A DNA stretch of 40,759 nt, taken from positions 1 through 40,759 of IMG/VR virus record IMGVR_UViG_3300045996_000721; one strand, given 5' to 3'. Every line of letters begins with the position of its first letter. Position 1 is the stretch's first letter. Shown here one piece after another: positions 9,953 to 35,845 of this stretch. This stretch comes from a virus. The notes beneath the pieces were generated by a model. The model did no database searches, was not told the origin of the DNA, and saw nothing but the letters and a program-made list of their open reading frames with translations. The translations under genes were made by a program, and so were the position numbers.

Positions 9953-10399
9953 ATGAAAAGTTTGAAGCAGCTGGCGATCGACGCCACCGGCACCATGGAA
10001 GTCAAGGACGCCGCCGGCAACGTGGTCACGAACGATGACGGCAGCGTGTGGTCGATCACCTTCCACAGCCCAGGTACCAAGGTGTATCAGGAAGCGCACC
10101 ACAAATTCCAGGCGCGCAAAGCCTCGAGCATGAAGGCGCTGATGGGCAACAACGCCGACAAGGGCGACCCGATGGAAGAGATCAACGGCGTGGCCAACTT
10201 CCTCGCGTCTGTGACTGTCTCGTTTAACAATTTCGATTACGAAGGTCGCACGGGCAAGGCCGCTTTCACCGCCGCATACGCCGACCTGGAAATTCTGCAC
10301 GTCGCTGAGCAAGCCAATGTGTTCCTGGGTAACCGGGGAAACTTCTGGAAGAAGCCTGCGGTCAGCTCGCCCGAGCAGTCCGGCATCTCGCCTGGCTGA
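9953..10399 (+). CDS. Tail assembly chaperone G
   Basis: A 148-residue protein between tail tube and tape measure genes, the position of lambda gpG. Such chaperones coat the tape measure protein and recruit tube subunits. The ribosome site GAAGGA is good. The frame contains the slippery heptamer GGGAAAC at codons 128-130, after which most translation should continue to the stop at 10399 while a fraction shifts -1 into the T extension. Confidence 0.87.
   Translation: MKSLKQLAIDATGTMEVKDAAGNVVTNDDGSVWSITFHSPGTKVYQEAHHKFQARKASSMKALMGNNADKGDPMEEINGVANFLASVTVSFNNFDYEGRTGKAAFTAAYADLEILHVAEQANVFLGNRGNFWKKPAVSSPEQSGISPG
10336..10342 (+). promoter_or_regulatory. Programmed -1 frameshift site GGGAAAC
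   Basis: In the G frame the bases read G GGA AAC, an X XXY YYZ heptamer close to lambda's GGGAAAG in the same gene pair. The -1 frame has a stop at 10330-10332, just before the site, and stays open from there to 10794, as a shift site requires. Possible downstream pairing (CTGC..GCAG) is not resolved. Confidence 0.88.
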
Positions 10400-19416: not shown

Positions 19417-19478
19417 GCGGCCACGCGACGAGCGAACGCCGCGTCCTCCATCTCCTGCTTGATTTCTTCGGGGGTCAT
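19350..19478 (-). CDS. Small membrane protein at the end of the leftward operon
   Basis: A 42-residue protein with a charged helical start (MTPEEIKQEMEDAAFARR) and one membrane helix (VAAYLFVAFVGLAVVSLVL). The ATG overlaps the stop of the large upstream gene by ATGA. Its 3' half is antisense to the end of Rz, so the late and leftward transcripts converge here with no visible terminator. Function unknown. Confidence 0.65.
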   Translation of the reverse strand: MTPEEIKQEMEDAAFARRVAAYLFVAFVGLAVVSLVLTSLAY

Positions 19479-21688
19479 TTGCCACCCCGCGCCGCGCGCT
19501 CGGCCACCAGCACGTCCGTAAGCGCCAGAGTTGCATCCAGCGCGGCCTTTTCCATCACCGACTTATCCGCCGCACTTGCGTAGGCGTTCACAGCCTGTTC
19601 CAGCCGCACCCGCGCGCCGATTCTCTCGTCCTTGGCCGGTGGCTTGGGCTGCTCGACCACCACAGCTTTAGGACGTGGCACGATGGCGAATTGCGGGCCA
19701 TCAGCATACACTGGCTTGACGGTGCGCGATTCGAACACCTGCCATGCCTTCTCGGCGCCGGGCACGCCCAGGGTGACCGCAGTGGCCAGCGCTGGCTGCA
19801 TGTTGGACGGGTACCCCATGGTCGACCCGGCATAGCCGAACGTCTGCCCGTCGGTCCACTTGCGGCCCGCCTCGCGAATCCACGCAGCCTGCGCAGCTGG
19901 CGTTTTCTGGTCGATCCACCGCTTGCCGGGCACGCTCATTGGCTTGCGGTCGTCGTCGGCGATCACATCACCGCTGTAGTTCTTCTGGTACATCTGGGCA
20001 AAGGTGTCGTACACCGGCCCGCCGGCGTCATCGCGCACGCGGTAGAAGTAGTCCGCGGCCATGATCGGGTCGAACCCCGGCGCGGTGAGGCGGCCGACGA
20101 CGAATTGCGCTTTCCAGTTGAACAGCGCCTTGGCCTTCTCCGAACCCAGCTCGACCAGGTGGCCGATGGCCCAGGTGAAATAGTCGTCCTGCCATGGCGC
20201 GGCGCCCGTACCCGGCGGCGTGCCGCCCAACTGGAATGCGCCCTCGCCCGAGCCGTCGTAGATGCCCAGCGCGTTGGGTTTGCCCTCCACGTAGGTGCGA
20301 AGGTAGAAGTCCAGATTGTTGCCAAGCTGCCGGCTGAAATACGCTTTCATCGGGTGGTCGTCCGGCGTGATGTAAGCGGTATGGCCCAGGGTTCGCACGC
20401 TCCACGCCTGTCCGCGCAGCTGCTGCCAGCGCACCAGGCCGGCGCCGTTGCCGTGGTTGCCGGGGGCAGTCTCAAGCGGGTTCCATGCAGCCCAAAAGTG
20501 CAGTTCGTCGAGGTAGAACTGCTCACCCGTGATCAGGTACGGCAGGTACGCCAGCGAGGGCTGGTGCGCGGTGTCCGGGGTGTAGGGCACCTGGTCCTGC
20601 CCCTTGATCGTGCGCGGCACCGGCAGCGGCCCTTTGTGCGCCATGTTGCCGTGCGTGGTCACCTGGGACAGCGCGGTGGTGTCGGTGCGCAGCGGGTAAC
20701 CGGTGTTCTCATCGCGGTAGTGGATCGGCCAGCTGCCGGCGCCGTCGGCCGCAGCCAGCATCGCATCGTGCGCGCGGCGGTCGTGCGACAGCAGATAGGC
20801 CACGGTGAAGCCGGGCAGCGGACCGATGTCTGGCCGGCCGCCAGTGGTCGGCATGTACTCGCGGATCGGGCCGATCTTCATTGGTCCCGCATTGACGCCG
20901 CGGCCCCACTCGGCCAGCATCTTCTCGGAAGGCTTCACCGACAGGTCGTAGTTGGGGATAGCGCGCGTGGCGATCAGGTAGGCGGTATCCGGATGCACCA
21001 CCAGATCGGACGCGGCGCCCAGCCACGACACCCAGCGCCAGCGCGCCTGCCGGTAGTGGGTGATCGGCGGGCCGTCCGGGCTGGTGGCGTAAAGGGTCTT
21101 GCCGCCGGCCGTTATGGCGACGTGATAGGTGTAGTTGCGCGCCGGGCCGGCGAAGGTGCGGGTGTTCTCGATCACCACCTCCAACCGCACCTTCTCGCCG
21201 TACGATCGGAAGGCGAACAGCGCGGTGAGGTGGGGGTGTGGGCCGGCGGGGCCGACGAATGGCACCTGCGCGCGGCTTTCCTGGACCACGGGGCCAGACA
21301 GCCACCTTTGCAACGGCGTGCCCTTGGGGTCGATCGTGGCGCGGTACTGCACGCCGTCGATGTTCAGCAGCACCTCGGGCACCGCCGGGCCGGCGTTGGA
21401 TGGCGCCAGCTTGTTTGCCATCGGCGGCGCCGCGCCAAGGATCAGCGGCACTTTCTCGCCGGCTGCGGCCTTGGGCAGCACGCCGGACAGGATGGCGTGG
21501 CGCACCGAGCCGTCGGGGTGCTTGGCTTTGATGTCGACCTGCAGCGGCACGACGTTGCCGTGCGATACAACGCCTACCAGTCCGGCATCGGCGCGCAGGT
21601 GGCCGGGCGCGAACACCTGGCCGAAGGTGAAAGGGGCGTCAGCGGTGTCCGGCCCCACGTTTTCGATCGTTACGACTGGCATTTGCAC
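19475..21688 (-). CDS. Large protein resembling PcRGLX/YetA carbohydrate-active enzymes
   Basis: A 737-residue protein without signal peptide. The N-terminal part (VTIENVGPDTADAPFTFGQ, LQVDIKAKHPDGSVRHAILS) resembles the RIFT-barrel start of the PcRGLX/YetA family, which includes rhamnogalacturonan-lyase-like enzymes. The middle (LAYLPYLITGEQFYLDEL, FTWAIGHLVELG) looks like an alpha/alpha barrel of the polysaccharide-lyase type. The last 70 residues are a helical tail. It could be a polysaccharide depolymerase carried on the virion, but it lies on the replication strand at the end of the immunity-gene operon. GTG 21688 has AAAGGAA upstream; ATG 21682 is an alternative. The family call is from memory and moderate. 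Confidence 0.6.
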   Translation of the reverse strand: MQMPVVTIENVGPDTADAPFTFGQVFAPGHLRADAGLVGVVSHGNVVPLQVDIKAKHPDGSVRHAILSGVLPKAAAGEKVPLILGAAPPMANKLAPSNAGPAVPEVLLNIDGVQYRATIDPKGTPLQRWLSGPVVQESRAQVPFVGPAGPHPHLTALFAFRSYGEKVRLEVVIENTRTFAGPARNYTYHVAITAGGKTLYATSPDGPPITHYRQARWRWVSWLGAASDLVVHPDTAYLIATRAIPNYDLSVKPSEKMLAEWGRGVNAGPMKIGPIREYMPTTGGRPDIGPLPGFTVAYLLSHDRRAHDAMLAAADGAGSWPIHYRDENTGYPLRTDTTALSQVTTHGNMAHKGPLPVPRTIKGQDQVPYTPDTAHQPSLAYLPYLITGEQFYLDELHFWAAWNPLETAPGNHGNGAGLVRWQQLRGQAWSVRTLGHTAYITPDDHPMKAYFSRQLGNNLDFYLRTYVEGKPNALGIYDGSGEGAFQLGGTPPGTGAAPWQDDYFTWAIGHLVELGSEKAKALFNWKAQFVVGRLTAPGFDPIMAADYFYRVRDDAGGPVYDTFAQMYQKNYSGDVIADDDRKPMSVPGKRWIDQKTPAAQAAWIREAGRKWTDGQTFGYAGSTMGYPSNMQPALATAVTLGVPGAEKAWQVFESRTVKPVYADGPQFAIVPRPKAVVVEQPKPPAKDERIGARVRLEQAVNAYASAADKSVMEKAALDATLALTDVLVAERAARGGK

Positions 21689-22150: not shown

Positions 22151-22330
22151 TTAGGCAGTGATCGGACCGCGTGCGGCGCGCTCGGTTTCGCGGTTCATCT
22201 GGTACAGCACGGATTGAATCGGTACGATGTTGCCGTTCATGCGCACCAGGAAATCCATCGGCTGCGCGTCCATTGCCACGATGGTGACCATGTTCGACTC
22301 GATGATGCCGCTGTGGATAATTGCTGCCAT
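22151..22330 (-). CDS. Small protein, first gene behind a strong leftward promoter
   Basis: A 59-residue protein (MAAIIHSGIIESNMVTIVA ... RAARGPITA). TAGGAG lies seven bases before the ATG. It is the promoter-proximal gene of the 22370 promoter, upstream of the basic protein and the immunity gene. The sequence is mixed strand and helix with no membrane segment. A small first gene after an early promoter is often a host-takeover or anti-defence protein; that is inference only. Confidence 0.7.
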   Translation of the reverse strand: MAAIIHSGIIESNMVTIVAMDAQPMDFLVRMNGNIVPIQSVLYQMNRETERAARGPITA

Positions 22331-22367: not shown

Positions 22368-22395
22368 AGTATAGCACAACAAAATACTTGTGCAA
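22368..22395 (-). promoter_or_regulatory. Leftward promoter A with overlapping operator sites
   Basis: On the - strand, TTGCAC (22395-22390) and TATACT (22373-22368) are 16 bases apart, with TGC just before the -10 (extended -10). CTTGTGCAAGCA (22387-22398) overlaps the -35 and TAGCACAA (22372-22379) overlaps the -10; both match parts of the operator at 31800. A 22-base stretch, 22358-22379, is identical to 25746-25767 at promoter B. Confidence 0.75.
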
Positions 22396-25554: not shown

Positions 25555-25722
25555 TCACATGTACGACTTGACCTGGACCGGCTGGCTGATCGCAGGCACC
25601 AGTTGGATGGCGATATGCTCGGCTGCCAGGTAGTCATCTGCGATGACTGTTTTGGTGATGATGCGACCGGTTGGCAGGCTAAGGAGGTTGAAAATCCATT
25701 CGGTGCGGTTCGATGCGATCAT
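25555..25722 (-). CDS. Small protein, first gene behind leftward promoter B
   Basis: A 55-residue protein (MIASNRTEWIFNLLSLPTG start, VKSYM end). TTAGGAG lies seven bases before the ATG, a layout almost identical to the gene at 22330 behind promoter A, although the two proteins are not clearly similar. Early, promoter-proximal expression suggests an accessory or host-directed role, which is inference. Confidence 0.68.
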   Translation of the reverse strand: MIASNRTEWIFNLLSLPTGRIITKTVIADDYLAAEHIAIQLVPAISQPVQVKSYM

Positions 25723-25755: not shown

Positions 25756-25783
25756 AGTATAGCACAAGTAAAAACTTGTACAA
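25756..25783 (-). promoter_or_regulatory. Leftward promoter B with operator sites
   Basis: On the - strand, TTGTAC (25783-25778) and TATACT (25761-25756) are 16 bases apart, with TGC before the -10. The perfect palindrome CTTGTACAAG (25775-25784) covers the -35, and TAGCACAAG (25760-25768) overlaps the -10. It lies between the DNA polymerase stop and the gene at 25722. Confidence 0.77.
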
Positions 25784-31146: not shown

Positions 31147-31692
31147 TCAGCCCTTGATCGCTGCCAGCACGGCCGGGTACTGCTCGACCTTGAGGTCGGT
31201 GGCGCGGGCCACACCGAACTGGTCGGTAAGCAGCTTGCGGCAGGCTTCCTGGCTGTTGGCTTTGATGAACGCCAGCAGCGCCGGCTTCACGTCCTTGTCG
31301 TAGTTCAGCGGCTCGGCGTCATCCGTATCCGGTGCCGCTGCAGACCCAGCAGTGGACGCGGCGGTGTCGGTTTTGGTCGCTTCCGCAGCACCAGCAAGCT
31401 TTTTTGCGTCGGCTTCCACCTTGGCCACGGCCTGGTCCAGTTCGGCGTCAGGCTTGACTTCGGCCGCTTTTTCCTTCTTGGTGATGGCCTTCTGGACTTC
31501 GGCCATCACGGCCTCGCGTGCAGGGTTGGCCTTCTGCTCTACTACCAGTGGGCCGCCACCCGACGAAGCGGCCAAATACGCCTTGGACATCGCCTCATAG
31601 CCGGCAGTGTTTGCGCGGGTCGCTTCGGCGCTGATATCGGCGGCATAGCGCAGCGCGGCTGCCAGTTCCAGAATTGCATTCTCAATCGACAT
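31147..31692 (-). CDS. First gene of the leftward replication operon, unknown
   Basis: A 181-residue protein with a helical N-terminus ([17 protein letters not shown]), a long Ala/Lys/Thr-rich linker and a compact C-terminal domain ([22 protein letters not shown]). AAGGAAC precedes the ATG. This layout, a helical end joined by a linker to a small domain, is seen in uncharacterised proteins near DUF2800 genes. As the first gene after promoter C it should be made early. Confidence 0.72.
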
Positions 31693-31737: not shown

Positions 31738-31766
31738 AGTATTGCACAAGCAATTGATTGTTGCAA
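31738..31766 (-). promoter_or_regulatory. Leftward promoter C of the replication operon
   Basis: On the - strand, TTGCAA (31766-31761) and AATACT (31743-31738) are 17 bases apart. TTGCTTGTGC (31753-31744) fills the spacer end, as in promoters A and B, where a TTGTGC also precedes the -10. It drives the gene at 31692 and the replication cluster. Confidence 0.7.
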
Positions 31767-31799
31767 GTAGTTTTCGAGAAAATTTGCGGGCACAATATT

Positions 31800-31815
31800 T
31801 TGCTTGTGCTAGCAA
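31800..31815 (+). promoter_or_regulatory. Operator-like element in the rightward regulator promoter
   Basis: TTGCTTGTGCTAGCAA, an imperfect inverted repeat (TTGCT/AGCAA), covers the likely -35 TTGTGC (31805-31810) of a rightward promoter whose -10 is CATACT (17-base spacer, 31828-31833). The same element, or half of it, recurs at promoters A, B and C and at 34107. It probably mediates autoregulation of the gene at 31864. Confidence 0.68.
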
Positions 31816-31863
31816 TCTTTTGTTGGCATACTTCGGATCATTCACTTGACAAGGAGGGAAACT

Positions 31864-32334
31864 GTGACTACTGAAAAGCCGAAGTACGGCATTGACCGCG
31901 CCCTGCAGCGGGTGCATCCCTACAGGCTGGCGGAGGAACTTGGCTTAGGCAAACGCCGCGTGCCCAAATGGATCAAGGACGATCCGGCCAGCGCGCTGCA
32001 GAAGTGCGCCGAGGCGGCAGGCAGCCAGGTCGCCCTGGCCCGCATCCTGGGCGTATCCCAGCGCACCATCAGCGTGTGGATTGCGGCCGACCTGCCCAAT
32101 CGCGAGGCCAAGCAGCCAGGCAACGCCGTGGAGCGCGCGGTGGCGGCGGCCGGGGGCCAGCCGGCCATGGCCGAGGCGCTGGGCGTCACCCAGCAGAGCG
32201 TGTCCGAGTGGTGCAAGCAAGGGTACGTGCCGGCAGCGCGCGCCCAGGAGATAGAACACACCTGGGGGGTGTCGCGCGTGGAGCTGCTGGCGCCGAAGTT
32301 GCGCAATGCCCTGGGTGCCGGGGGTGAGCTGTGA
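31864..32334 (+). CDS. Transcription regulator with three helix-turn-helix repeats
   Basis: A 156-residue protein with three copies of one pattern, LG[VL]xxxx[IV]xxW: residues 21-36 (RLAEELGLGKRRVPKW), 57-72 (ALARILGVSQRTISVW) and 101-116 (AMAEALGVTQQSVSEW). Repeats two and three resemble the YdaS/Cro family of small phage repressors; the first is more diverged. The third is followed by EIEHTWGVSRVELLAP, the usual YdaS end. Start GTG 31864 has AAGGAGGG six bases upstream; it diverges from the replication operon over a shared operator region, the place of a Cro/CI-type switch protein. Likely the controller of promoters A-C and 34107. Confidence 0.82.
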   Translation: MTTEKPKYGIDRALQRVHPYRLAEELGLGKRRVPKWIKDDPASALQKCAEAAGSQVALARILGVSQRTISVWIAADLPNREAKQPGNAVERAVAAAGGQPAMAEALGVTQQSVSEWCKQGYVPAARAQEIEHTWGVSRVELLAPKLRNALGAGGEL

Positions 32335-34009: not shown

Positions 34010-34035
34010 CAGGGGACTCCACGTGTAGCACCTTG

Positions 34036-34060
34036 CGCCACCTTCGGGTGGCGTTTTCTT
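34036..34060 (+). terminator. Rho-independent terminator of the regulator operon
   Basis: CGCCACC (34036-34042), loop TTCG, GGTGGCG (34047-34053), then TTTTCTTTT. A perfect 7-bp GC-rich stem with a stable UUCG-type loop and U-tract, placed just after the last gene of the operon. Confidence 0.93.
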
Positions 34061-34106: not shown

Positions 34107-34135
34107 TTGCTAACACAAGGAAATTTCCTCATAAT
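34107..34135 (+). promoter_or_regulatory. Promoter with operators for the methyltransferase-primase operon
   Basis: TTGCTA (34107-34112) and CATAAT (34130-34135) are 17 bases apart. TTGCTAACACAAGGAA (34107-34122) matches the reverse complement of the 31800 operator at 14 of 16 positions, and the spacer holds the perfect 12-base palindrome AGGAAATTTCCT (34118-34129). Transcription should start near 34142. Confidence 0.7.
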
Positions 34136-34160: not shown

Positions 34161-34238
34161 AAGCAGCAGGAAGGTGCCCCACCCGGGATTGGCCGGGAGA
34201 CTTGGCAGTCGGGGCGCCTTCCTGCTGCTTTTTCTTTT
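34161..34238 (+). terminator. Large terminator-like hairpin in the methyltransferase leader
   Basis: A 20-bp stem joins 34161-34180 to 34211-34230, with one G-U pair if RNA. The 30-base loop contains an inner CCCGG/CCGGG stem, and the last arm runs into TTTTTCTTTT. It lies between the 34107 promoter and the gene at 34253, so it can terminate transcripts before the operon. It could be an attenuator controlled by antitermination, or a structured small RNA. The GGAG before the gene starts right after the U-tract. Confidence 0.8.
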
Positions 34239-34252
34239 GGAGCACAGGAAAT

Positions 34253-35845
34253 ATGCAATTCACAATACTGCGCGGCGACTGCCTGGCCCGCATGCAGGAG
34301 ATGGCCGATAACTCGGTCGATTCAATCGTAACGGATCCTCCATATGCCTTCACCGGGGGCTTCATGGGCAAGAAATGGGACAACTTCGACGGAAGGGAGG
34401 ATGCGGGCTTTGGATATTGGCTGGCGGGCTTCACCGACGGCGAAGGCCATTTCAGGGTGCAAAAGCACGAACGCGGCACCCACATGTGTGCCTTCCAGTT
34501 GAAGCTCCGTGACGACGATCTGGCGGCCCTTGAGCGCATCAAGCGTTTCGTTGGTGCCGGCAGCATCCATTTTATTGAGGGGAACGGGTCGAGCAATCGA
34601 CAGGCGGTATACGTGGTCCAGGATAAAGACGGTTGCGACCGCCTGGTGACCTTGTTCCGCAAGTACCCATTGACCGCCAAGAAAGCCCTAGATTTCGAAA
34701 TTTGGGCCGAAGCTGTGGAGGAATGGCTGGATCGCCCCCGCGGTAATCGCTGGGCGGGTGCGTCGGATCAAACCCGCGCGGCCGCGCTTAAGGCCCGGCT
34801 GGAGGACGTGCGGCGATACACCGACATTCCGTGGTCTGGCCATAAGTTCCAAGATTGGGTGCGCCAGTGGGCGAAAGAGTGCATGCGCGTGCTTAAACCG
34901 GGCGGCCACCTGCTGGCGTTCGGGGCCACGCGGCAGTATCACCGGCTGACAGCGGGTATTGAAGATGCGGGGTTTGAGATCCGCGATTCAATTGCCTGGA
35001 TGTACGGATCTGGATTTCCGAAAAGCAACAATCTTGACGGCGAGTGGAAAGGATGGGGAACAGCCCTGAAACCGGCCCATGAGCCTATCTGCGTGGCGCG
35101 CAAGCCGCTGACCGGCACCGTGGTGGCGAATGTGCTGGAGTTCGGTACTGGGGCGTTGAATATCGACGGGTGCCGGGTGGCTACGGATGACGTTCTGCAG
35201 CTCGGCAAGACCGGCCTGGCATCCGAAAAGTTCTTTACGAAAGGTGCCGCGCCGCAGATCGAGAAGCAACAGCACGACGCCGGCCGTTGGCCGGCCAACA
35301 TCATCCATGACGGCAGCAACGAGGTGCTGGCGCTGTTCCCAGACACTGGCCCCAGCACCGGCGGTGGGCGCAAGAATGGCGACAAATTTGGAGGCGGTTA
35401 CGCCGCGCCGGGTAGGGACACAATCGGTTTGGGCGACACCGGCAGCGCCGCCCGCTTCTTCTACTGCGCCAAGGCCAGCAAGGCAGACCGCAACGAGGGT
35501 TGCGAAAGTCTGAAATTGACGGACGCATCCGAAGTGACAGGCCGGGCGCCAGGTAGCGCGGGCTTAGTTATGGAGGGAGGCAAAGCGAATCCTTACGCCG
35601 GAACATCGGGCGCAGCCCGCACTAATTCCCATCCGACCGTCAAGCCCACCGCCCTGATGGCCTACCTGGTGCGCCTGGTCACCCCGCCGGGCGGCCTGGT
35701 GCTGGACCCGTTCATGGGCAGTGGCTCGACCGGCAAGGCGTGCATGCGCGAGGGATTCCGGTTCATCGGCATCGAGCTGTCGGACGAATACGCGGACATC
35801 GCCGAGGCCCGCATTACCCAAGAAATGGTAGGAGACCTCCTGTGA
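34253..35845 (+). CDS. Beta-class DNA methyltransferase with inserted LAGLIDADG domain
   Basis: A 530-residue adenine-N6 or cytosine-N4 methyltransferase. Motif IV TDPPY (residues 27-31) is near the start and motif I DPFMGSGSTG near residue 485, the order of the beta class. GFMGKKWD (36-43) and FQDWVRQWAKECMRVLKPGG (199-218) would join in an ordinary member. Between them, residues about 44-198 carry WLAGFTDGEGHF, a LAGLIDADG motif, and the helical remainder of such a domain. Intein end motifs are absent. DNA modification may protect the phage from restriction; the insert may be a homing or DNA-binding module. ATG 34253 has GGAG and AGGAAA upstream. It overlaps the primase gene by TGATG. Confidence 0.87.
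   Translation: MQFTILRGDCLARMQEMADNSVDSIVTDPPYAFTGGFMGKKWDNFDGREDAGFGYWLAGFTDGEGHFRVQKHERGTHMCAFQLKLRDDDLAALERIKRFVGAGSIHFIEGNGSSNRQAVYVVQDKDGCDRLVTLFRKYPLTAKKALDFEIWAEAVEEWLDRPRGNRWAGASDQTRAAALKARLEDVRRYTDIPWSGHKFQDWVRQWAKECMRVLKPGGHLLAFGATRQYHRLTAGIEDAGFEIRDSIAWMYGSGFPKSNNLDGEWKGWGTALKPAHEPICVARKPLTGTVVANVLEFGTGALNIDGCRVATDDVLQLGKTGLASEKFFTKGAAPQIEKQQHDAGRWPANIIHDGSNEVLALFPDTGPSTGGGRKNGDKFGGGYAAPGRDTIGLGDTGSAARFFYCAKASKADRNEGCESLKLTDASEVTGRAPGSAGLVMEGGKANPYAGTSGAARTNSHPTVKPTALMAYLVRLVTPPGGLVLDPFMGSGSTGKACMREGFRFIGIELSDEYADIAEARITQEMVGDLL

Follow-up and report, generated by a model that had tools for sequence, protein, structure and literature searches.

The recognition helix of phage 434 starts with TQQS and its operators contain ACAA half-sites, with N6 between ACAA and TTGT. 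The YdaS protein of prophage CP-933P leaves footprints at divergent promoters, and a role as Cro analogue has been argued for it (PMC8630535). The immunity repressors of cluster A mycobacteriophages use dispersed, asymmetric stoperators, which are bound by the monomer via two different domains and at which elongation is also stopped (PMC9283540).

The DNA analysed here, in the following called the window, is the IMG/VR virus record IMGVR_UViG_3300045996_000721 with a length of 40,759 bases. Terminase, portal, major head and tape-measure genes were all found. The replication module is homologous to that of Bordetella phage BPP-1 (Rauchvirus), with exonuclease, ssDNA-binding protein, polymerase A and helicase in the same order. 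Unlike the window, BPP-1 carries a UmuD-like CI, a small Cro and an integrase; a related regulator is absent, and no dyad of the kind described below was found in the 18.5 kb examined.

With the Cro proteins of P22, N15 and Xfaso 1 and with CP-933P YdaS, the window shares the HTH fold of the last regulator domain, a regulator gene divergent from another operon and symmetric operators over both promoters. In contrast to these systems, the regulator chain holds two or three HTH domains, no CI partner was found and operators also occur at internal promoters at distances of several kb. The half-site of the window is GCACAA, compared with the repeat GTTTAGTAA of CP-933P. The TQQS start of the recognition helix and the half-site ACAA are common to the window and the 434 repressor/Cro, whereas the N8 spacing, the tandem domains and the dispersed sites are not. 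The 434 proteins were not among the sequence-search matches. Like the cluster A repressors, the window has one regulator with more than one DNA-binding domain per chain and many dispersed sites, but these sites are symmetric, few and all located at promoters. Asymmetric sites within transcribed units, as in stoperators, were not found; operator copies outside the immunity region are present as two internal sites.

Regulator protein

The regulator gene (31864..32334, + strand, GTG start) encodes a protein for which models predict three tandem HTH domains, the last two being YdaS/P22-Cro-like. By sequence it belongs to the Cro/YdaS family, with Pfam scores of 85.8 bits for YdaS_toxin (cut-off 30) and 50.2 bits for P22_Cro (cut-off 30.2), above the curated cut-offs and on two stretches each. 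The third, N-terminal unit appears HTH-like in the model. In a Foldseek comparison, the model of the last domain showed the Cro-type HTH fold when matched to Xfaso 1 Cro and N15 Cro, with a TM-score of 0.80-0.84 for Xfaso 1 Cro, normalised by target length. The models do not reliably orient the domains relative to one another (pTM 0.48-0.52).

Typical members of the Cro/YdaS family are small proteins with a single domain, whereas two to three HTH domains are found in the window and its close relatives. The regulator of relative L007 can be aligned over the same length as that of the window, most relatives have two domains, and the distant relatives L150 and L151 have a single HTH domain. The related phages show stages of domain gain, with one, two and three HTHs. 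It is the last domain that is conserved, and its recognition helix in the window reads GVTQQSVSEW. A Caulobacter phage GB2A match was rejected as a tandem protein, since it joins two genes of which only the second encodes an HTH. The regulator is a new tandem-HTH variant of Cro and the likely reader of the operator described below.

Operator sites and promoters

The initial annotation had proposed the 16-mer TTGCTAGCACAAGCAA as an operator shared by five promoters. This 16-mer was confirmed on the minus strand at 31800-31815, with a 14/16 match at 34107-34122. Allowing up to three mismatches, these two were the only matches in 40.8 kb (0.27 expected). Because 5/100 shuffles also reached two matches, the 16-mer alone is weak, and it was dropped as the operator unit. 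In an alignment of the four convincing sites, the shared element emerges as a 20-bp dyad, GCACAA-N8-TTGTGC, matches to which were scored over the 12 arm positions.

The dyad at 22374..22393 (- strand, 12/12) lies in a leftward internal promoter that immediately follows the helicase gene and is read from the sequence as TTGCAC-16-TATACT (-35 at 22395-22390, -10 at 22373-22368). Directly after the DNA polymerase gene, the dyad at 25762..25781 (- strand, 11/12) lies in a second internal leftward promoter, TTGTAC-16-TATACT (-35 at 25783-25778, -10 at 25761-25756). The third dyad, GCACAAGCAATTGATTGTTG at 31744..31763 (- strand, 10/12, right arm imperfect), is found within the leftward promoter of the replication operon, TTGCAA-17-AATACT (-35 at 31766-31761, -10 at 31743-31738). 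This operon begins with a gene at 31147..31692 (- strand), followed by the exonuclease, ssDNA-binding protein, DNA polymerase and helicase genes. In each of these leftward promoters, the space from -35 to -10 is taken up by the dyad. The fourth dyad, GCACAATATTTTGCTTGTGC at 31790..31809 (+ strand, 12/12), instead covers the -35 and upstream DNA of the rightward regulator promoter TTGTGC-17-CATACT (-35 at 31804-31809, -10 at 31827-31832). The sites earlier placed over promoter boxes at 31744-31753, 22370 and 25760 were correctly positioned. Between the two divergon operators lies an AT-rich inverted repeat (TTTTCGAGAAAA, 31771-31782), possibly a second regulator site or simply promoter DNA.

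Small orphan genes follow directly downstream of the internal promoters, one of 59 aa at 22151..22330 (- strand) and one of 55 aa at 25555..25722 (- strand). Neither matches a known PHROGs family, and the membership of an 'immunity gene' in the regulon, as suggested earlier, found no support. A 737-aa protein encoded on the early-gene strand at 19475-21688 (-), downstream of the 22374 promoter, is likewise without a PHROGs match.

At 11/12 or better, three dyads were seen in the window against 0.07 expected. At 10/12 or better the count was only 8 against 1.85 expected, so that the 31744 site, a weaker, degenerate copy, rests on its position and on the relatives. As the motif had been chosen post hoc, after looking at the sequence, a surrogate test was run: dyad families with AT-containing arms and no fewer than three members turned up in 12/40 surrogates. 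From the window alone, the three-dyad family is therefore moderately unusual and suggestive, and the case is decided by the relatives.

Conservation in related phages

With the window regulator as query, no matches were obtained in viral or genome contigs and none in plasmids. An exonuclease query reached eight relatives (L003-L008, L012 and L083), all of which carry a syntenic, divergent regulator homologue. All 8 of these relatives have dyad sites, and the sites recur at matching places: in the regulator/replication divergon and right behind the polymerase and helicase genes. A third internal site is also frequent. The genome thus contains several copies of one site, with two internal copies in the window and two or three in most relatives. 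The pattern derived from the window found four sites with at most one mismatch in L007 (G005) and one exact site in L003 (G001). In L007 the 31790 dyad is kept (G005:9313, 11/12), the 31744 dyad occurs at the same place, and the divergon dyads are spaced 46 bp as in the window. Overall, core dyads numbered 38 in 436 kb of records with the regulator, compared with 2 in the 176 kb from homologous phages that lack it. Those phages had no intergenic sites; the AT-rich one of their two dyads, from Xenorhabdus L084, was rejected as an operator because it is located inside coding sequence. The operator is conserved in about a dozen relatives, dispersed and real.

A second group of relatives, clade 2 (L005, L006, L008, L012, L083 and L111-L114), shows an invariant internal site, GCACAAGTAAATACTTGCGT, followed by GTATAGT. 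Here the dyad sits 2 bp further from the -10 than in the other phages, yet it is kept. The clade 2 divergon dyad has other arms, CGCAAG-N6-CTTGCG, and lies upstream of the -10. In the window and the relatives alike, each internal promoter is followed by a conserved leader and then a small gene, whose start codon is 52-80 nt away from where the dyad starts.

These relatives allow the dyad to be weighed against a repeat that simply belongs to the promoters. The elements might represent a phage-wide promoter consensus (-35 TTGYAC and extended -10 TTGTGCTATACT), copied along with the small-gene cassettes, with incidental symmetry and no phage protein as reader. Three of the four window sites do coincide with -35/-10 boxes and the extended -10, of which TTGTGY before the -10 is partly an element, and the replication promoters of clade 2 keep TTGTGT before the -10 with no dyad partner. 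The internal cassettes are, moreover, nearly identical copies, leaders included. However, the 31790 dyad is off register with its promoter and covers only the -35, the clade 2 divergon dyad has its different arms and position, and the sites go together with the regulator gene. Most telling against a simple promoter repeat, the dyad stays intact although its register to the -10 changes, both in the clade 2 internal sites, where the two arms are kept, and in the regulator promoter. We regard such a copied promoter consensus as improbable.

The two dyads after the polymerase and helicase genes directly follow stop codons and are listed as terminator-like in a terminator scan, as would be expected if they formed RNA hairpins acting as weak intrinsic terminators or processing sites. 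Terminator-like sites occur near the shuffle level, though (13 compared with 9.2), the -10 comes at once and is followed by leader and start codon, and the 31790 dyad belongs to a divergent promoter. Because no U-run follows the dyad in clade 2 (GTGTATAGTTC), a function as RNA hairpin is unlikely, and we give it very little credence.

Recognition helix and half-site

In the phages whose helix carries TQQ (the window, L007, L003 and L151), A precedes CAA in 30/30 listed half-sites. In clade 2, where the helix is mostly TRQ, G is found in 8/8 divergon half-sites and in 1/2 internal half-sites. A natural Q-to-R exchange in the recognition helix is thus paired with A-to-G in the operator, and the change runs the way one would expect were this base read by the first glutamine. 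The fit is imperfect, as L083 combines TPQ with G-type sites and L004 combines SGQ with A-type sites, and the correlation is essentially one evolutionary change. Together with the likeness of TQQS to 434, the covariation of TRQ and G points to the last domain as the probable operator reader.

Proposed regulation of early genes

We consider it likely, with good confidence, that the dyad is the operator of the Cro-like protein encoded at 31864 and that this protein represses four early promoters including its own. The autoregulated regulon of replication operon and small early genes, as put forward in the initial annotation, is supported by conservation in the relatives and by the match of helix and operator, and control of the early replication genes very probably lies with a single protein. 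The protein would bind the dyad via its last domain, two copies reading the two ACAA half-sites, presumably as a dimer. Bound in the gap from -35 to -10 or over the -35 itself, it would sterically exclude RNA polymerase and so probably act by repression rather than activation. Early in infection the free promoters of the replication operon, the two internal small-gene units and the regulator would fire; the accumulating protein would later shut all four together, its own included.

The main rival is that the same operator is read by the same protein in a CI role, as a lysogeny-type immunity repressor and not as a Cro-type regulator of the lytic cycle. Immunity repressors, for example those of mycobacteriophages (PMC9283540), typically have their operators scattered over early promoters. 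No S24-type CI repressor was found in the window and seven relatives, a result that leaves room for a non-S24 repressor, and the 31864 protein is the sole repressor candidate identified. On the other hand, its domains are Cro/YdaS-like with no regulated C-terminal domain, a strong site covers the -35 of its own promoter, and no integrase domain was found in the window or in the seven relatives, though any of these records may be incomplete. The pairing with an opposing CI-type prophage repressor that goes with the Cro/YdaS family was not seen in them. A CI-like immunity role seems to us unlikely, if worth keeping in view. A reverse transcriptase was not found in the same eight records either. 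As CI-type repressor, integrase and reverse transcriptase were all not found, the protein is most likely a stand-alone Cro-like early-gene repressor acting in a system without CI. The system is a well-supported variant of the classic phage switch, and it offers a compact system, open to testing, in which a dispersed early regulon would be run by a stand-alone Cro-like protein.

Variation of the first HTH domain

In the clade 2 regulators of L107-L113, the core of the first HTH (codons 14-34; locus coordinates 10001-10348) is hypervariable, with a pN of 0.49 and a pS of 0.49, compared with a pN of 0.01-0.02 in every other segment. Clade 2 phages whose first-HTH cores are almost wholly different are nearly or fully identical in the rest of the regulator and in the internal operators. 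A diversity-generating retroelement was rejected as the source of this variation, given that no reverse transcriptase was found in the eight records and that the changes are not confined to one base; replacement of the first HTH by recombination is possible. Covariation with the divergon operator or the promoter spacer was also rejected: L107, L112 and L113 have nearly the same promoter region but each a different first HTH, and in L111 and L112 one and the same first HTH goes with different promoter regions.

Since the first HTH varies, the internal operators are identical and no covariation with the divergon promoter region was seen, it is unlikely that the clade 2 first HTH reads the invariant half-sites through its recognition helix. 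Tentatively, and with low probability, the last HTH may read the dispersed operator while the first is a fast-diversifying module that sets phage-specific, immunity-like specificity for DNA or protein among co-occurring phages. That regulators so alike elsewhere should be hypervariable in the first HTH raises the question of what a phage regulator must diversify against.

The promoter at position 34107

The fifth promoter of the initial annotation, TTGCTA-17-CATAAT at 34107..34135 (+ strand), is a good promoter of the methyltransferase operon with one half-site-like stretch, ACACAA, and is probably not an operator. The right dyad arm is absent, and a similar element, looked for in the equivalent promoter of relative L003, was not present there. 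The count of five promoters accordingly falls to four, and membership of the methyltransferase-primase operon in the regulon is not supported for the window phage. A strong terminator-like hairpin at 34035-34054 (+) just upstream of the 34107 promoter suggests that this operon is a separate unit.

In L083, a dyad promoter is present in the left operon, unlike in the window's methyltransferase-primase operon. In the L083 phage (G008 contig C28, 31315-31334), the internal operator-promoter cassette is also present in the leftward operon on the regulator side, where a small gene and then helicase and methyltransferase genes follow it. Such cassettes can thus move between operons. The methyltransferase frame of the window (34202-35845, +) contains an in-frame LAGLIDADG endonuclease domain at protein residues 74-171, and the methyltransferases of the relatives align on both sides of this stretch.
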